Origin: Methanolobus chelungpuianus
GTDB lineage: Archaea; Halobacteriota; Methanosarcinia; Methanosarcinales; Methanosarcinaceae
Reading direction: 5' to 3'
DNA length: 64,000 nt
Assembly: GCF_024500045.1 (NCBI RefSeq)
Contig: NZ_JTEO01000004.1
Location: forward strand, 186,001-250,000
Shown: positions 38,973 through 47,408 of the stretch, one piece after another
Position numbering within the stretch: the first letter of the stretch is position 1
How the letters are laid out: every line of letters starts with the position of its first letter
Program-made: the position numbers and the translations under genes
The notes under the pieces: model-generated
Databases searched by the model: none
Told to the model about the DNA's origin: nothing
What the model saw: only the letters and a program-made list of their open reading frames with translations

Positions 38973-39734
38973 ATGCGAGTGAACATCTTCTATTCGGGCG
39001 AGTTTGGGAAAAGGGTAATTGGCAATCTGGTCAATTCCGACAGTTTCTGCGTGGCCTGCGGCGATCTGTGCGATCACTGCAGGGAGCTGCGACCCGGACT
39101 TGGCAATATCATCACCGGGATCTTCGAGTTAAGGAATGACCTCCCCGATTTCGTTGAAGAGCCCATGGAATACATGCCGGAGCAGGTACCGGCTTGTGAT
39201 CTTATTCTCGCTATAGATCTCAATCCTGACTTATTGACAGTGGTCCCTCAGCTTGCAGAAAAGTCCGGCGCAAAGGGAGTCATCATCCCTGTAGACGACT
39301 CAAGGGTCGTTCCGGCGGGCCTGGCAGAGCAGGTAAAACAACAACTGGAGCAAAGAGGCATTGAATGTGAATGTCCCAAGCCTTTCTGTGCCCTTGACCT
39401 GACAGGAAAGAAGTCTATCGATGATTTTGTAAAGCTGGGCTTTGGAAAACCTGTCTTAAAAGTCGATCTGGGCCATGCTGACGAAATCTTCACTCACGCA
39501 GAGGTCCTTAGGGATGCACCCTGCGGTTCAACCTGGTTCGTTGCAAAGAAGCTCAAGTGGTCAGATGTGAAGGATTATAAGGAAACCATATCCGGAGCTC
39601 ACCATTCCTACCCCTGTACTGCAAGTATGGAGAGAGACCCGCAGATCGGTGATACTATCCTGCACGAAGCGGGTTATATCATAAGGAAAAGCGCTGAAGA
39701 AGCAATGGAGAATGCGTCAAGGAAAAATAGATAA
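38973..39734 (+). CDS. DUF166 family protein
   Basis: 253 residues. The N-terminus I-F-Y-S-G-E-F-G-K-R-V and a cysteine-rich segment C-V-A-C-G-D-L-C-D-H-C-R near residue 27-38 are followed by D-L-x-L-A-I-D-L-N-P-D and late P-C-G-S-T-W-F-V-A-K. These are the marks of DUF166, an archaeal family sometimes mislabelled thymidylate synthase. Cysteine spacing suggests an iron-sulfur or zinc site. No substrate is known. A terminator hairpin follows 2 nt after the stop. Confidence 0.85.
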   Translation: MRVNIFYSGEFGKRVIGNLVNSDSFCVACGDLCDHCRELRPGLGNIITGIFELRNDLPDFVEEPMEYMPEQVPACDLILAIDLNPDLLTVVPQLAEKSGAKGVIIPVDDSRVVPAGLAEQVKQQLEQRGIECECPKPFCALDLTGKKSIDDFVKLGFGKPVLKVDLGHADEIFTHAEVLRDAPCGSTWFVAKKLKWSDVKDYKETISGAHHSYPCTASMERDPQIGDTILHEAGYIIRKSAEEAMENASRKNR

Positions 39735-39808: not shown

Positions 39809-41800
39809 TCAGGTTGTAACTACTTCTATTATCTGCGTGTCTTCTGTCGTCTCAGTGTCATTCTCATTTTCGGTCTCATTAACGGCTTCCATATCTTCCG
39901 TCTCGTTCATGTCCTCAGTATCATCAACGGTTTCCATGTCTTCAGTTTCGTTCATGTCCTCAGTATCATCAACGGTTTCCATGTCTTCAGTTTCGTTCAT
40001 GTCCTCCGTCTCGTTAACTGATTCCATATCGTCTGTCTCGTTCATGGCTGTTTCATTATCTGTCTCAGATATTTCGCAGAACCCGAGGGTTATCCATGCA
40101 TTATCGTCTCCCATCTCTCCGATGTTCCTGATGTCTACTGCAATGACATAACCTTCATTGTTTGGCGGAAGCATTCCATCCCATGTGTCTTCGAAGTGGA
40201 TGACAATGGAGTCAACTACCTCCCCGGTCTGATCAGTCATATTTGTCATGTTGCTGCCAGTCTGGTTTGTCATGTTGGTCATATTGTCACCGGTCTGAGT
40301 GCCATTCATGCCCGTTTCCTCTTTCACGAACATGGTCTGGTTCGTCTCGTTGTCTGTCACTTCAGTCCAGTTACCGTTCTCATCACTTACGGATATTATC
40401 TGGTCTGCAGGCACATTGAGCATAACACTACCGATGGAAGCATTAGGGAAAGTCTCTGTAGTGTTGTCTGTAAGCTCTATGTTCGCAAAGTAGGGTGTGG
40501 TCTCGTTGTTGATAAGCATCGTGGCGTTCAGCTGGCCATCATATTCACTCTTATCCGGCTGGACCACATTCAGGTAGCAGGTTGTAATCCCTTCTCCCTT
40601 ACAGGTTATCCAGGCCATGTCGTCTCCCGCATCACCGATGTTCTCTACCAGTGCAGCGATGGCATACCCCTGCTCGTTGACCGGGACCGTACCATCCCAC
40701 TCATCCGTATATGTGATAGTTATAGGACCGCTTACATTCCCAGTTTCTGACATTGTGATCTCTGTCTGGAAATCTCCGAAATCATGTTCCACTTCATCAC
40801 TCATTATCGCAGTGATCACTACGAGGAACTCTCCGAATGGCATTTCATTCGTTTCGTTTGTCTCTATCTCTGTGAACTCCAGCTCGTTTCCTTCAGCATC
40901 GGTAACGTTCTGTATGAGGTCCACAGGTGCATTCACCTGGATCTTGCTTATCTGCGCGTCCTGGAATGTCTCAAGAGTATCATTTGTCAGCTCTATTTCT
41001 GCAGTGTTGGACTCATTATCGATCATCACGCTTGCGTTGAGCTGTCCTTCATACTGGCTCTTGTCCTCCTGGACAATGTTCAGATAGCAGGCAGCCTCCT
41101 CAGTTGTTTCATTTGCATCAACATCAGTCTGGTTATCATCTTCTGGCTGCTCCTCATCTACCGGTGCTTCATCATCTACTGGGACTTCGCCATCAGTCTG
41201 ATTACCATCGGTCTGGTTGCCGTCAGTCTGATTATCGTCTACAGGTGTTTCCTCGTCTATGGGCGTTGTCTCATCACAGAATCCAATTGTCACCCACGCA
41301 CTCATATCTCCGGTTTCCCCGATGTTACTGACCTCAGTTGCTACGAGATATCCTTCATCATTCCTCGGGAATGACTGGTCCCAGTCATCTACGAAAGTCA
41401 CAGTGACGGTAGTTTCAGGGCTGACCTCGACTTCTTCTCCCGGCTCAAGGCTGGTATTGAAGGTGCCGAAATCTTCTGTATCCTCACTAACCTCATTTAT
41501 CTGCCATTCATTTCCTTCGGAATCAGTGGCACTTTCTATCTGATCTGAAGGAATGTTGAGCAGTATGGTCTCAATGGCTGCATCAGAAAAGTTTGTTGTG
41601 GTCTCATCCGTAAGCATCATTTCCGCGGTATAGGGAGCAGATGTGGACACATCCATACTTACATTCAGCTGTCCTTCAAATTCGCTGTTCGACTCCTGGA
41701 CATCATTCAGATAACAGGCTGCACTGGCAAATCCTATTGAAAGGAATACCATAACAGCAGTCATCAGTGCTATTCTTAACCTCGTATTATTCATTTTCAT
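39809..41800 (-). CDS. Secreted three-repeat acidic glycoprotein-like protein
   Basis: 663 residues from the ATG at 41800 (GGTGGTAC on the coding strand upstream; the frame opens earlier, but the signal peptide starts here). Residues 1-28 form a signal peptide ending A-S-A-A. Three homologous domains (about 28-190, 260-410, 410-580) each begin C-Y-L-N, contain an N-x-P-x-D-Q-I or close variant (copy B reads N-A-P-V-D-L-I) and end near W-(I/V)-T. Linkers and the tail are acidic and rich in Asn-x-Thr sites; the tail repeats N-E-T-E-D-M-E-T-V. No membrane anchor is visible at the C-terminus. It is likely exported, N-glycosylated and part of the cell surface. Partner for anchoring is unknown. Confidence 0.8.
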   Translation of the reverse strand: MKMNNTRLRIALMTAVMVFLSIGFASAACYLNDVQESNSEFEGQLNVSMDVSTSAPYTAEMMLTDETTTNFSDAAIETILLNIPSDQIESATDSEGNEWQINEVSEDTEDFGTFNTSLEPGEEVEVSPETTVTVTFVDDWDQSFPRNDEGYLVATEVSNIGETGDMSAWVTIGFCDETTPIDEETPVDDNQTDGNQTDGNQTDGEVPVDDEAPVDEEQPEDDNQTDVDANETTEEAACYLNIVQEDKSQYEGQLNASVMIDNESNTAEIELTNDTLETFQDAQISKIQVNAPVDLIQNVTDAEGNELEFTEIETNETNEMPFGEFLVVITAIMSDEVEHDFGDFQTEITMSETGNVSGPITITYTDEWDGTVPVNEQGYAIAALVENIGDAGDDMAWITCKGEGITTCYLNVVQPDKSEYDGQLNATMLINNETTPYFANIELTDNTTETFPNASIGSVMLNVPADQIISVSDENGNWTEVTDNETNQTMFVKEETGMNGTQTGDNMTNMTNQTGSNMTNMTDQTGEVVDSIVIHFEDTWDGMLPPNNEGYVIAVDIRNIGEMGDDNAWITLGFCEISETDNETAMNETDDMESVNETEDMNETEDMETVDDTEDMNETEDMETVDDTEDMNETEDMEAVNETENENDTETTEDTQIIEVVTT
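39905..39994. repeat. 45-bp tandem repeat coding for the acidic tail
   Basis: Two copies of a 45-bp unit (39905-39949 and 39950-39994), nearly identical, encode the repeated N-E-T-E-D-M-E-T-V-D-D-T-E-D-M tail. The period keeps the reading frame, so copy number can change without disrupting the gene. Confidence 0.8.
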
Positions 41801-42222
41801 ATCGTACCACCTACATTTAAGTGTAGTCGATAATGCTTTTGTTTGTAGTATGTTATTCTCTTTGCGAAACATTGATGCATAATTTATATAGTAATTAAAT
41901 ATAGTGTGGCTGTTGGGACAGAAGCAAAATATGGAGCAGGCTACATAGAAAAAACGCGGGTGCTTCTTGACAGGTGTGGACTATGCTCTCAATGGTAAAA
42001 AGAACGGCTGTATGATAAAAGGCTAAGGGCCGGAGGATTAAGATAAGAATCAAATATACAAAATCAAAAATGATGGCAAGAAAAATCGAGCAGGGGGCCG
42101 GCATAAGGACCGGAGCCTTTTAGCCGTCCGTATTAAGTCCTTCACCGGCCTCCTAATGTATTTTTTACTTACAGTCCTCTAAAAGAGGTTCAGGTATTTT
42201 CTCTTGGTATATCGTAGCTCCT
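41801..42222. other. Intergenic region between two surface-protein genes
   Basis: 422 bp without a gene that I can support. It contains the leader and promoter of the minus-strand gene on the left (TTGCGAAAC at 41862-41870 and TATA-rich AATTTATATAG near 41880) and the long hairpin at 42093-42153 after the stop of the next gene. Small frames present here lack ribosome sites. Confidence 0.6.
42093..42153. terminator. Long interrupted hairpin, probably bidirectional terminator
   Basis: GGGGGCCGG (42093-42101) pairs with CCGGCCTCC (42145-42153) with one G-U, and AAGGAC (42105-42110) pairs with GTCCTT (42137-42142), leaving small internal loops; the apical part can pair CGG with CCG. T-runs lie on both sides (TTTTTT near 42160; on the minus strand a TTTTT near 42085). 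It is about 70 nt after the stop of the 42223-44133 gene. Confidence 0.5.
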
Positions 42223-44133
42223 TCACACGGTATCGTTCATATCTGCTTCGTCCACGTCCGTCTCGTTCATGTCCTCGGTCTCATTGATTTCTTCCATGTC
42301 TTCAGTTTCGTTCATGTCCGTGACATTCTCAGCAGTCTCATTCTCGCAGAATCCAAGGGTTACCCATGCATTATCGTCTCCCGTTTCTCCAATGTTACGG
42401 AAGTCAACAGAGATAAGGTATCCTTCCTCATTGACAGGCAGAGTTCCATTCCAGCTGTCGTTGAGATAGATGGTTATGGGCCCTGAATCTGTTGTATTGT
42501 TGTCACCCTCATCATCCGCTTCGAATCTCTCGAGCACTGTCATGTTGTCGCTCAGATCGACCAGTGACCAATTGCCAAATGGGGCTGTCACATTGTCTAT
42601 CTGATCGGCAGGCATATTGAACAGTATTGTCTCGATGGTTGTGTTCGGGAAGATATCCAGGGTTTCGTTTGTGAGTTCGATCTCAATGAAATACGGTGCT
42701 GTTTCATTGTTGACCATCATCGTGGCGTTAAGATCGCCTTCGTACTCACTCTTGTTGTCCTCAACATCATTGATGTAACACACAGTAATGTTTTCCATAT
42801 CATCAGTGACATTGTCCCCTGGTGTCACATTACCGTCTCCAGGTGTGACATTGCCGTCCCCTGGAGTTACATTACCGTTTCCAGGTGTTACGTTTCCGTC
42901 CCCTGGAGTTACATTACCGTCTCCCGGTGTGACATTACCGTTTCCAGGTGTTACGTTTCCGTCCGTGACATTCTCCGCTTCACAGAAACCAAGTGTTATC
43001 CATGCACTATCGTTGCCCTCTTCCCCTATGTCCTCTACATCTGCAGCCACTACATACCCTTCGTCGTTCTCAGGGAATGTACCATTCCAGCTGTCATTGA
43101 AGTATATGGTGACCGGGCCTGTTGCATTGACGCTTTCGTTCATGGTTATCTTTGTGAAGAACCTGCCGAATGGGTTCTCAAGATCCTCATTCATTGTGAG
43201 CATTGTTGTGAAATTGCCGAACGGATTCGGTTCTTCTTCAACTATTTCCGAGATATCCCACTCATTTCCGAGGGTATCGTTCGCGTTAACTATCTGGTCC
43301 ATCGGCACGTTCAGCACGATGGTCGTCAGTGTTGCGTTCGGGAACGTTTCCTGTGTAGCGTTGGTCAGTTCAATCTCCGCTGTGTAAGGCGTGGTCTCAT
43401 TGTTGACCAGCATTGTAGCGTTGAGATCGCCCTCGTACTGGGTCTTGTTCTCCTCTACAATGTTCAGGTAGCAGGTTGTCACATTGGTGACGTTGTCTGT
43501 AACATTATCTCCTGGTGGTGTTACATTACCGTCCCCCGGGGTCACGTTGCCGTCCCCTGGCGTTACATTTCCATCTCCAGGAGTGACATTGCCGTCACCT
43601 GGTGTTACATTACCGTCTGTGACGTTATCATCACAGAACCCGAGAGTCACCCAGGCGCTGTCGTTTCCGGCATCACCTATGTTCTCGATGTCGACTGCTA
43701 TCACATACCCTTCATCGTTCTCAGGGAATGTGCCGTTCCAGCTATCGTTGAAGTTGATAGTCACCGGACCGCTTGCATTCTCAGCATTCTCATCGATCTC
43801 AGCCATAACAACTGTGTTGGTCTGGCCTTGTTCATCTATCTCTACTATTGACCAGTTCCCGGCCTCACTGCTCGCACTTTCTATCTGTTCTGCAGGAATA
43901 TTGAGCAGTATAGTGGTCATCGTGGCATTCGGGAACACTTCCAGAGTCTCATTATCCAGCTCGATCTCGGCTGAATACGGAGTGGTCTGGTTGTTTATGA
44001 TCAATGTTGCGTTAAGGTCGCCCTGATATTGGCTCTTGTTCACCTCAACCTCATTTATATAGCATGTCGCACTTGCAAATCCGATTGACAGTATCGCAAT
44101 AGCAACAGCTAAAAACACAATTCTTTGTTTCAT
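42223..44133 (-). CDS. Secreted three-repeat protein with GNVTPGD linkers
   Basis: 636 residues. A signal peptide (about 1-23, ending A-S-A-T) precedes three domains that are homologous to those of the neighbour at 39809-41800; each has C-Y-(I/L)-N, a core L-N-x-P-x-(D/E)-Q-I and a final W-(V/I)-T-L-G-F-C. Domains are joined by five and seven copies of G-N-V-T-P-G-(D/N), each with an N-V-T glycosylation site. The acidic tail is short and again N-E-T-E-D-M rich. GGTGGTAC precedes the ATG on the coding strand. Likely an exported, heavily glycosylated surface protein without its own membrane anchor. Confidence 0.8.
   Translation of the reverse strand: MKQRIVFLAVAIAILSIGFASATCYINEVEVNKSQYQGDLNATLIINNQTTPYSAEIELDNETLEVFPNATMTTILLNIPAEQIESASSEAGNWSIVEIDEQGQTNTVVMAEIDENAENASGPVTINFNDSWNGTFPENDEGYVIAVDIENIGDAGNDSAWVTLGFCDDNVTDGNVTPGDGNVTPGDGNVTPGDGNVTPGDGNVTPPGDNVTDNVTNVTTCYLNIVEENKTQYEGDLNATMLVNNETTPYTAEIELTNATQETFPNATLTTIVLNVPMDQIVNANDTLGNEWDISEIVEEEPNPFGNFTTMLTMNEDLENPFGRFFTKITMNESVNATGPVTIYFNDSWNGTFPENDEGYVVAADVEDIGEEGNDSAWITLGFCEAENVTDGNVTPGNGNVTPGDGNVTPGDGNVTPGNGNVTPGDGNVTPGDGNVTPGDNVTDDMENITVCYINDVEDNKSEYEGDLNATMMVNNETAPYFIEIELTNETLDIFPNTTIETILFNMPADQIDNVTAPFGNWSLVDLSDNMTVLERFEADDEGDNNTTDSGPITIYLNDSWNGTLPVNEEGYLISVDFRNIGETGDDNAWVTLGFCENETAENVTDMNETEDMEEINETEDMNETDVDEADMNDTV
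42816..42962. repeat. 21-bp coding repeats, seven units (second linker)
   Basis: Seven variants of a 21-bp unit encode G-N-V-T-P-G-D or G-N-V-T-P-G-N between domains two and three of the surface protein. Units differ at silent or near-silent positions, so the array has drifted. Not a CRISPR: no spacers. Confidence 0.85.
43509..43616. repeat. 21-bp coding repeats, five units (first linker)
   Basis: Five units of the same 21-bp repeat, one with an extra proline codon, encode the linker between domains one and two of the same protein. Confidence 0.85.
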
Positions 44134-44395
44134 AGTTGTACCACCCGCTTAAAGTGTTATACATATGGTTCTTTTTTTAACTTAAGCGACTTGCGAAACT
44201 TTATTTCGGAGATTAATGCAGGCGAATAAGTTCTGCAGCATGCTTGGAATCAGAAAGAGTGCAATTATAGTGTCTTTGAGCGGGACATGATAATCAGTGT
44301 CCACATGATATGAAGAATTGTTCAAAATAAGAAAGGCTTACGCAAGAAGCAGTTCAGAAAATGGCATAATACGAAAAATAAAGGAAGGAGTGAAC

Positions 44396-44914
44396 TTACT
44401 CCTTTCTGCGCTGGAACATGAATGCAAGTCCGAGAATTGCAGCTATTGGGAGCGCAACGGTCGGGAACTCTGGGATTTCCTCTATTTCGCCATCGTCTTC
44501 ATTAAAGCAGAACGTGACGTGGCTGATGTCCTTGTTTGCAGGTGCAACGAGTCCTTCATCGCCGGTTGCGCCATCAGGGTAATAGTATATGTAGGCCCCG
44601 CCGCCGGATTGCTCACTGCCTGCCTTCACAACCACTGCGCACACAGGGTATTCTGACTCCCAGTCGAAAGTTCCACCATTGCTGTTTAAGATTGTAATGT
44701 TATTTCCAGCATAAGCATATACGCCATCCATGCCATTCTCTTGATCCCATTCATCGATCTTATATGCAAAGTCGCTGTCGCAATCAGTCTGACTGCACTC
44801 GAATTCGGCGTTGCCGGAGGTCCAGTTCAGGATATGGACTGGTGTAATACTGGTTGCTGTTGCCAATGGCATGAGCGCCATAAGTATAAGCAACACTACT
44901 AATATTCTTTTCAT
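44396..44914 (-). CDS. Secreted protein with PEF-CTERM sorting signal
   Basis: 172 residues. The signal peptide (about 1-21) is followed by a distinct domain with a few cysteines (C-S-Q-T-D-C-D, Y-P-V-C-A-V, V-T-F-C-F). The C-terminus has the archaeal PEF-CTERM signal: I-P-E-F-P-T, a 16-18-residue hydrophobic segment and Q-R-R-K-E. An archaeosortase should cut and anchor it. The last 80 bp are almost identical at the DNA level to the end of the gene at 45489-46085. GGTGGTA precedes the ATG on the coding strand. The body resembles surface proteins of methanogens, but I do not know its ligand. Confidence 0.82.
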   Translation of the reverse strand: MKRILVVLLILMALMPLATATSITPVHILNWTSGNAEFECSQTDCDSDFAYKIDEWDQENGMDGVYAYAGNNITILNSNGGTFDWESEYPVCAVVVKAGSEQSGGGAYIYYYPDGATGDEGLVAPANKDISHVTFCFNEDDGEIEEIPEFPTVALPIAAILGLAFMFQRRKE

Positions 44915-45488
44915 TTCATACCACCTTTACGATCATTATTTCGGTCTTTTGATAAGACGTTCATCTATCAACCTTTCTTACTATTTATTATTTCCCTACT
45001 AATCGCTATCATCATACTCATAATGATGATTTCCTTCGTTTTAGGGAATTTATTCAAATCAATAATGCCACGTTCTTCGGAACTCAAGCTCCCGCTAATT
45101 CTTTTAATCGGCTGTTCTTATATAATCTCTATGGGCCACAAGGTCTCTATTGCATGCTGTCGAAACTACTTGCCTGTCTGGGGAATGGAACTTCAACACG
45201 GCCTGTCGGGTGGAATCTCACATCTACTCCGGAAAAATGATCGTGTTCTCCTAAAACGGCATTGTTGACGTGTACACGCAGTATTCTCATTATATCAGCG
45301 AATAAGACGATGGCGATGCAAAAGAGCACCGAAATCATTACTTTGTAAATGAGGTCCTTTTACGACTCTCATACTAAGACTAAAATAAGAACCTAAATTG
45401 ATATTACCTGTCCGGAGGACAATATCGTTCAGAGACACGGTGTAATGCCAAAAGCAAAAAAAAGAAAGAGGAACAGGGAGGAGTAAGC
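44915..45488. other. Intergenic region with a promoter-proximal inverted repeat
   Basis: 574 bp without a supported gene. Near the left side it has a TATA-like AAATAATAAATAG on the minus strand near 44985 and an inverted repeat at 45008-45030. The rest up to 45480 has short frames without ribosome sites; a run of A and T near 45440-45480 may be the end of the next transcript. Confidence 0.6.
45008..45030. promoter_or_regulatory. Inverted repeat upstream of a PEF-CTERM gene
   Basis: ATCATCAT (45008-45015) and ATGATGAT (45023-45030) form a perfect 8-bp inverted repeat with a 7-nt spacer. It lies about 15-25 nt upstream of the TATA-like sequence of the 44396-44914 gene. The 14-mer CTCATAATGATGAT at 45017-45030 occurs again at 46161-46174. 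Confidence 0.5.
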
Positions 45489-46085
45489 TTACTCCTTCCT
45501 GCGCTGGAACATGAATGCAAGTCCCAGTATTGCTGCGATTGGCAGTGCAAGTGTCGGGAACTCTGGGATTTCCTGAACTTCTCCATTCAATCCAAGCCAT
45601 ACGCTCTCAGGGTTTCCTGGAAGCCTGGTAACGTGCAGGACTACGGAATAGTCATTCACGTTCTTTGGAAGTACGCCGTCCCATTCCTGGCTCATCTGTA
45701 TCTTGATGTATTGTACAGTTCCCTGGTCGCCGCTTTCCCTGTCAACTGCTGTGAGCATTGCTCCGAATCCTGCATTGCCCTGTCCCTTGTCATCCTCAAC
45801 TACCCAGTCGACCTTCGGGTTGTCATCTGAGACACTTGCGATCTGGTCTGCCGGGATGTTGAGAAGCACTGTCTTCATAGAGACCTTTTCAGTGTTAGGC
45901 TCCATGACCTCAAGTTCTATTGTTTTGCTGACATCATCCACTGTGATCTTGATATCGATATCGCCGTCATAGTACTCATTGGCATCTTCTTCGGTCAAGT
46001 GGAATTCTGTTACTGCTGCACTAGCTGTCCCCACAATCATTAGCAGAAAAACTGCCATGATTAATGCAAGTTTCATATTTTTCAT
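45489..46085 (-). CDS. Secreted single-copy repeat-domain protein with PEF-CTERM signal
   Basis: 198 residues from the ATG at 46085, preceded by GGTGGTAC on the coding strand; upstream residues of the same frame are not signal-like. Signal peptide (about 1-24) precedes one copy of the domain repeated three times in each of the two large neighbours, recognisable by L-N-I-P-A-D-Q-I and S-Q-E-W-D-G-V-L-P. It ends with E-F-P-T-L-A-L-P-I and Q-R-R-K-E, the PEF-CTERM signal. Here the domain is directly attached to an anchor, which suggests that this is the anchoring or ancestral form and the larger proteins are expanded, unanchored versions. Confidence 0.85.
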   Translation of the reverse strand: MKNMKLALIMAVFLLMIVGTASAAVTEFHLTEEDANEYYDGDIDIKITVDDVSKTIELEVMEPNTEKVSMKTVLLNIPADQIASVSDDNPKVDWVVEDDKGQGNAGFGAMLTAVDRESGDQGTVQYIKIQMSQEWDGVLPKNVNDYSVVLHVTRLPGNPESVWLGLNGEVQEIPEFPTLALPIAAILGLAFMFQRRKE

Positions 46086-46286: not shown

Positions 46287-47408
46287 ATGGCCAGCAAAGT
46301 CTCCATTATACCCTGCACTGACTACTCCCTTGCCGCAGGGAGTGTCAGAGCCTCGGTCGATCTGATAGGCGGTCTCCTGCCTGTTATCCAAACTGGTGAC
46401 CGGGTGCTGCTCAAGCCCAACATCCTTGCCGCGCGCAGGCCGGAGAATGCCGTAACTACGCACCCTGCCATAGTTTCCGCAATGTGCGAGCTGGTGCGCG
46501 AGGCAGGAGGCATCCCTGTGATCGGCGACGGCGCTGGTATCGCCTGCCCGGGGGCAACTGCAGAGGCCTTTGCAGCATCAGGGATAGCTGCAGTGGCAGA
46601 GGAGCTGGATGTTGAGCTCATCAACTTCCAGACTGCAGGTTTTGAAAAAGTGGATGTTCCCCTCGCCATGCATTTCCCAAAGCTCTTTGTATCAAAGGCT
46701 GTGCTGGACGCGGATGTCATCATATCCCTGCCCAAGCTCAAGACCCATGAGCTCACCTACTATACGGGGGCTGTCAAGAACATGTTCGGAGCGCTGCCGC
46801 TCAAGCATCGTAAAGAGATGCACCTCCTTGCTGAGAGAAAACTGTTCGGGGAGGCGGTCATCGACCTTTACTCCGTTGCAAGGCCCCACCTTGCTGTAAT
46901 GGACGGTGTAGTCGGCATGGAAGGCAACGGTCCGTCGCACGGCAAGCCTGTGAACACAGGTGTTATAATGGCAGGTTATGACCCGGTTTCCCTGGATATT
47001 ACTGCATCCAGGCTGATAGGGCTTGACCCGATGGAGGTTCCCACTACAAGGGCGGCGCTTGAGAGGGGATTCGGTACTTGCGAGCCTGAAATTGTGGGAG
47101 CTCCGCTTGAAGGGGCATCGGTAAAGTACAAGCCTTCCAATGGTGGCATCCTGTTCAATGTCCCGACTTTCATCACCCGCATATTCGGAAGATACTATTC
47201 AGTCATGCCGGGCATTGATAATTCAAGGTGCATCCGGTGCGGGGCGTGTGTGAGTGCCTGTCCTGTTCATGCGATAGGGTACGAGGACGACAAATTAAGC
47301 ATTGATAAAGAACGATGCATCCTCTGTTACTGCTGCCGGGAAATGTGCCCTGAGGACGCGGTAGGATCCGAGCGTTCACTGCTTGCAAAAATACTTGCAA
47401 ACGCCTGA
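46287..47408 (+). CDS. DUF362 protein with C-terminal 2[4Fe-4S] ferredoxin domain
   Basis: 373 residues. The DUF362 part (about 1-290) has L-L-K-P-N-I, a T-H-P-A-I motif, G-D-G-A-G, L-P-K-L-K-T-H and G-M-E-G-N-G-P. Two ferredoxin clusters follow: C-I-R-C-G-A-C-V-S-A-C-P and C-I-L-C-Y-C-C-R-E-M-C-P. The family occurs widely in anaerobes and its reaction is unclear. The iron-sulfur pair suggests electron delivery to the N-terminal domain. It is divergent from the surface-protein gene with the shared inverted-repeat region between. Start has only a weak ribosome site. Confidence 0.88.
   Translation: MASKVSIIPCTDYSLAAGSVRASVDLIGGLLPVIQTGDRVLLKPNILAARRPENAVTTHPAIVSAMCELVREAGGIPVIGDGAGIACPGATAEAFAASGIAAVAEELDVELINFQTAGFEKVDVPLAMHFPKLFVSKAVLDADVIISLPKLKTHELTYYTGAVKNMFGALPLKHRKEMHLLAERKLFGEAVIDLYSVARPHLAVMDGVVGMEGNGPSHGKPVNTGVIMAGYDPVSLDITASRLIGLDPMEVPTTRAALERGFGTCEPEIVGAPLEGASVKYKPSNGGILFNVPTFITRIFGRYYSVMPGIDNSRCIRCGACVSACPVHAIGYEDDKLSIDKERCILCYCCREMCPEDAVGSERSLLAKILANA

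Follow-up and report, generated by a model that had tools for sequence, protein, structure and literature searches.

Among the described systems closest to the genes considered here is the PEF-CTERM/archaeosortase C system (TIGR03024 / TIGR03762), for which a passage of PMC5244752 cites Haft et al. 2012; in Haloferax, archaeosortase A attaches proteins to the membrane (PMC7157517). Fasciclin has been reported to be adhesive, and a fasciclin protein has been reported from methanogen extracellular material (PMC6367495). Here, we analysed a 64,000-nucleotide stretch of Methanolobus chelungpuianus DNA, in the following called the window, which lies within contig C4 of the 2.6-Mb genome and carries a minus-strand island of four genes, transcribed in the order C, D, B, A. 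Genes A, B and C encode three, three and one copies of a protein module, respectively, and D encodes none. With moderate confidence, we take this module to be an undescribed beta-sandwich ectodomain of PEF-CTERM (archaeosortase-C-type) proteins, copies of which were strung together to build secreted proteins for adhesion or matrix formation. A first-pass annotation of the window had already counted seven copies, 3+3+1, in three minus-strand genes of this island; count, place and the three domain genes hold, but the fourth island gene, D (44396-44914), had been overlooked. The genes and module copies are, in window coordinates:

39809..41872, minus strand: gene A, 687 amino acids; signal peptide, three copies, acidic linker rich in N-x-S/T sequons, repetitive acidic tail, without anchor
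41267..41719, minus strand: copy A1
40583..41092, minus strand: copy A2, ending in WITCKG instead of WxTLGFC, a variant ending also present in orthologues
40064..40582, minus strand: copy A3
42223..44133, minus strand: gene B, 636 amino acids; signal peptide, three copies, GDGNVTP linkers, acidic tail, without anchor
43624..44067, minus strand: copy B1
42970..43476, minus strand: copy B2
42334..42783, minus strand: copy B3
44396..44914, minus strand: gene D, a secreted PEF-CTERM protein of 172 amino acids, domain absent
45489..46085, minus strand: gene C; signal peptide, one divergent copy without cysteines, PEF-CTERM anchor
45570..46013, minus strand: copy C1

The true start of gene A is possibly an internal ATG at about residue 25-27; gene C starts with the ATG at 46085, and its frame stays open to 46109.

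In a leave-one-out test, in which each copy was compared with a hidden Markov model of the others and 2000 shuffles of each served as control, the copies scored 50-212 bits, far above the 20 bits or less of the best shuffles, indicating that all seven are homologous. The copy in C is the weakest (50.3 bits compared to 16.2 for its best shuffle) and clearly the most remote. Copies in A and B measure 148-174 residues and share, with exceptions, the motifs from C-Y-x-N to W-I/V-T-L-G-F-C that had originally been ascribed to the entire set: A1 ends in WVTIGFC and has WDQSFP in place of W-D/N-G-x-x-P. The copy in C does not follow this pattern, since it begins with VTEFH, ends with VWLGLNG and contains no cysteine, and thus neither CYxN nor WxTLGFC. 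Moreover, three copies deviate in the central motif, not one as stated before (A2, NAPVDLI; B1, NIPAEQI; B3, FNMPADQI). Among the 112 cysteines in domain copies, 106 are located at the two module ends, and whole copies nearly always have either both end cysteines or none; from this distribution, we take it as most likely that a single disulfide closes each module.

In neither Pfam nor NCBIfam did we find a family that spans the domain, be it in the window proteins or in distant homologues, and a profile search of PDB sequences yielded no match; the domain is uncharacterised in these libraries, as had been proposed. The AlphaFold2 model of B1, built on 32 aligned copies, is a confident beta-sandwich of about ten strands (predicted local distance difference test (pLDDT) 86.4, predicted template modelling score (pTM) 0.80), and the model of C1 (pLDDT 84.3, pTM 0.83) has the same strand order. 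For both models, the top Foldseek match in the PDB is a cohesin-like module of Clostridium perfringens (2jh2; E 3.5e-3 and 2.5e-2, template modelling (TM) score ~0.3-0.4), which is not significant. It is conceivable on this basis that the module is a cohesin-like protein-binding unit, whose tandem scaffolds dock partners non-covalently, the anchored copy or another anchored protein being one of them. The arrangement of modules in tandem on linkers is indeed scaffoldin-like, and the genome contains one dockerin-family match at another place. However, this match is to one remote gene on a different contig, Pfam cohesin families gave no match at E<=1, and other beta-sandwiches (mu-homology, integrin, p53-like) reach Foldseek scores similar to that of 2jh2, making this reading unlikely. 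A structural search of viral structures returned nothing significant, PHROGs gave weak matches without named function, and plasmid and phage searches produced either nothing or, through low-complexity linker sequence, a match to two plasmid records from Borrelia. The module ending '...VVVHI..G..S.WV' before the anchor, as seen in L106 and other distant homologues (genomes and loci carry our own numbers, G and L), presumably recalls bacterial PEP-CTERM ectodomains; one plasmid search found nothing.

An alignment of the six closer copies was used to search genome contigs, and the named relatives with the domain (at most 90% identity) all belong to Methanolobus. A nine-copy profile detected it in 11 of 27 Methanolobus genomes and, weakly, in other genera of the family, and a broader profile (A4) in 28 of 186 genomes from the order, of which 27 belong to that family and the remaining one, by a weak match, to a sister family. 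When A4 was applied to a phylum-wide sample of 393 genomes, it retrieved members of the same family only. So far, the domain is restricted to Methanosarcinaceae plus the one weak sister-family match. Most of its distant homologues are secreted, single-domain proteins of ~200 residues with a PEF-CTERM end; among the exceptions are two that join the module to DUF7507/DUF11-type repeats (L104 and L107, from another genus of the family) and one in which a repetitive tail replaces the anchor. The commonest form of the module is the ectodomain of small PEF-CTERM proteins.

Within the island, C and D score 38.3 and 39.2 bits with TIGR03024 (cut-off 23), bearing out the earlier assignment of a PEF-CTERM anchor to one of the domain genes. 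Their sorting signals are located at:

45495..45569, minus strand: PEF-CTERM sorting signal of C
44402..44476, minus strand: PEF-CTERM sorting signal of D

Judged by these signals, archaeosortase C would cleave C and D and attach them to the membrane; the enzyme is encoded in the genome (G000:C2:673942-674754; 294.9 bits, cut-off 100). Co-occurrence with archaeosortase, suggested as a check in the first-pass annotation, is therefore found in this genome, but it is not specific to the domain: we rejected a tie between the two, as most species without the domain have the enzyme and G007 and G023 have the domain without an enzyme match. The archaeosortase C gene and another PEF-CTERM gene are ~4 kb apart and flank the gene for a 909-amino-acid DUF1616 protein (L011; G000:C2:669951-674754). 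As a separate observation, G007 (a single contig), G018 and G023 encode PEF-CTERM proteins, yet gave no archaeosortase C match and, from the archaeosortase/exosortase family, only a single different gene; these genomes have either lost the enzyme or process the PEF-CTERM signal with a different one.

The only hydrophobic segment of proteins A and B is their N-terminal signal, and neither a TIGR03024 match nor a C-terminal hydrophobic segment was found in them. They carry net charges of -147 and -115 and contain 36 and 59 sequons, respectively, in agreement with the previous description of acidic, glycosylation-rich linkers without anchor; the sequons suggest that the linkers are glycosylated. 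Tandem repeats make up parts of these regions:

39876..40046, minus strand: 45-bp tandem repeats in the acidic tail of A (NETEDMETVDDTEDM type; NETEDM-type)
43516..43617, minus strand: 21/42-bp tandem repeats in the linker between B1 and B2 (GDGNVTP, with a sequon in every unit)
42814..42963, minus strand: 21/42-bp tandem repeats in the B2-B3 linker

We computed a species tree from the PheS- and TrpS-like genes. Tandem proteins occur in eight species of one supported clade (100/98) and in G010, to which no place in the tree could be assigned; G017, within the clade, has lost them. These anchor-less proteins repeat the module three to five times and exist in two forms, either as an A/B pair (the window, G015, G021 and G026, as well as G010 and G023 on broken contigs) or as a single protein of 1397-1529 residues (G007 and G012, as well as G013 on broken contigs). 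The cultured M. halotolerans SY-01 has the 1397-residue version (L050). In the tree of copies, A1, A2, A3, B1, B2 and B3 each form their own clade across species, indicating that the duplications predate these species, that the copies have not been homogenised, and that the tandem layout is old and kept. Orthologous copies have ratios of nonsynonymous to synonymous substitution rates (dN/dS) of 0.04-0.18, that is, they are under purifying selection.

The same data bear on the earlier model, in which the one domain of the anchored protein C contacts those of A and B, so that C presents or binds these larger proteins. C is a same-strand neighbour of A, B and D and has the domain in common with A and B. 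However, G007, G012 and G015 (~99% complete) keep tandem proteins without a C-type match, and the copy in C, which is the most divergent and lacks cysteines as well as sequons, branches far from the tandem copies; the steadier neighbour of the tandem genes is a PEF-CTERM gene without the domain. We consider this model very improbable, and nothing found here indicates a sheath, which had been proposed along with it.

The island is bordered by two plus-strand genes:

38973..39734, plus strand: DUF166 gene, bordering the conserved PEF-CTERM site on the left
46287..47408, plus strand: DUF362/ferredoxin gene, bordering the site on the right; PheS- and TrpS-like genes come next

This site between the DUF166 gene and the DUF362/PheS/TrpS cluster is kept throughout Methanolobus and harbours at least one PEF-CTERM gene in nearly every species examined, with a D-type gene in most. 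In G014, the site has no PEF-CTERM gene, and no PEF-CTERM protein or archaeosortase C match was detected anywhere in this genome; G005, in turn, has two single-domain PEF-CTERM versions of the domain at the same site. The DUF166-PheS interval appears as a conserved site for variable surface proteins, its PEF-CTERM genes having varied ectodomains.

Outside the island, the module is found joined to other domains. A fourth domain gene, missed in the first-pass annotation, lies near the end of contig C4 (876-877.5 kb; L009:3841-5526) and encodes a secreted protein without sorting signal, in which two further copies are followed by a C-terminal hemerythrin (PF01814, E 3.7e-13) with six histidines. 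The hemerythrin part carries a frameshift and a stop in the sister species G023, in G026 only a remnant precedes transposase-like sequence, and the G015 counterpart ends in a fasciclin domain instead. Fasciclin is fused to module proteins in several Methanolobus species (E ~1e-42 or lower), and cupredoxin domains are likewise attached in relatives. In G007, G012 and G013 it is even located inside one copy, in a variable loop before the FGxFxT motif; in L034 (G007:C1), a whole fasciclin at residues ~620-755 of 1529 thus separates two halves of a copy with one cysteine each, as also in L035 and L036. The module is predicted to be extracellular, is linked to PEF-CTERM anchoring and is joined in relatives to extracellular modules such as fasciclin, which upholds the idea of an envelope function put forward earlier. 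The G007/G012 tandem proteins also contain a segment that resembles, by eye, the ectodomain of two separate PEF-CTERM genes of G021 at this site, suggesting that anchored and secreted proteins have exchanged ectodomains there. This second ectodomain type is located at L026:12148-13603 (the G021 genes) and at residues ~845-985 of L034.

The fusions can also be taken to mean that these proteins handle oxygen, nitric oxide or metals at the surface, with the modules as stalks and hemerythrin or cupredoxin doing the work. The six-histidine hemerythrin of L009 and a cupredoxin in L029 with apparent His/Cys/His/Met ligands would fit such a role, but A and B have neither domain, the cupredoxin-like domains of G007 and G012 lack the ligands, and the hemerythrin part has decayed in G023 and G026 as described above; we regard it as improbable. 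An equally small chance is given to an accessory role in the S-layer or envelope, where the proteins would fill or cap the lattice without being adhesive, their acidity reflecting salt adaptation. A and B are strongly acidic, sequon-rich secreted proteins of a methanogen, and each of their copies is conserved between species, which is consistent with this view. Yet window proteins match no known S-layer family in Pfam or NCBIfam, the domain is patchily distributed (11 of 27 Methanolobus genomes), which speaks against a core function in the envelope, and the fasciclin fusions point to adhesion.

For A and B themselves, these fasciclin fusions, together with the fasciclin protein in methanogen extracellular material (PMC6367495), argue for a role in adhesion or matrix formation. 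Our proposal of a multiplied PEF-CTERM ectodomain would then entail that the module proteins are exported by the Sec pathway, that a disulfide between the two ends (C2-C145) closes each module, and that extended glycosylated linkers space the modules as beads on a string; A and B may be released or held non-covalently, and would serve within the S-layer or immediately outside it as a scaffold for adhesion or matrix. Several points weigh against this proposal. A and B have no recognised anchor to hold them on the cell, their acidity could be plain salt adaptation, and a hemerythrin or cupredoxin fusion could signal metal or gas chemistry. In addition, Foldseek returned nothing at E<=1e-3 for either model, leaving the module without a significant structural relative, and the tree is midpoint-rooted, so that the direction from anchored to secreted forms is argued from distribution and not proved. 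More tentatively, and with some doubt, we envisage that anchored single-domain proteins at one locus gave rise to a secreted, anchor-less matrix, by stringing ectodomains (the present one and the second type reused in G007/G012) together with exchangeable FAS1, copper- and oxygen-binding modules, and that related Methanolobus species thereby make differently equipped matrices from one kit.

To our knowledge, little has been established about the roles of PEF-CTERM proteins or about how Methanolobus cells stick to each other and to surfaces. The present analysis delineates a family of extracellular domains in methanogens that had not been described before and that probably originated as the ectodomain of PEF-CTERM proteins, and a single locus allows anchored and secreted forms to be compared across more than 20 species, making both questions testable in cultured strains.

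Compared to known systems, the locus shares with PEF-CTERM/archaeosortase C the above-cut-off signals of C and D, the enzyme in the genome and the PEF-CTERM form of most of the distant domain homologues, whereas a sorting signal is missing from A, B and the protein fused to hemerythrin. As the TIGR03024 model spans the tail only, the ectodomain itself is undescribed. Like the fasciclin (FAS1) adhesion proteins of methanogens, the module proteins are secreted and modular, and FAS1 is fused to the module in several Methanolobus species; A and B, however, contain no FAS1 domain (PF02469) by Pfam, and by profile the module shows no relationship to FAS1. The cohesin-like modules (PDB 2jh2, 2vo8) are likewise beta-sandwiches in extracellular tandem proteins, and 2jh2 is the top structural neighbour, but the match is not significant, is not accompanied by a sequence profile match, and has no dockerin partner at the locus. 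Archaeal DUF11/DUF7507-repeat surface proteins, finally, are also secreted tandem repeats, and L104 and L107 join the module to DUF7507-type repeats; their repeat is a different one, while here the module itself is repeated. The module is real, undescribed, family-restricted and by prediction extracellular, and represents not a new type of system but a new member of an already known class, the modular archaeal surface proteins.

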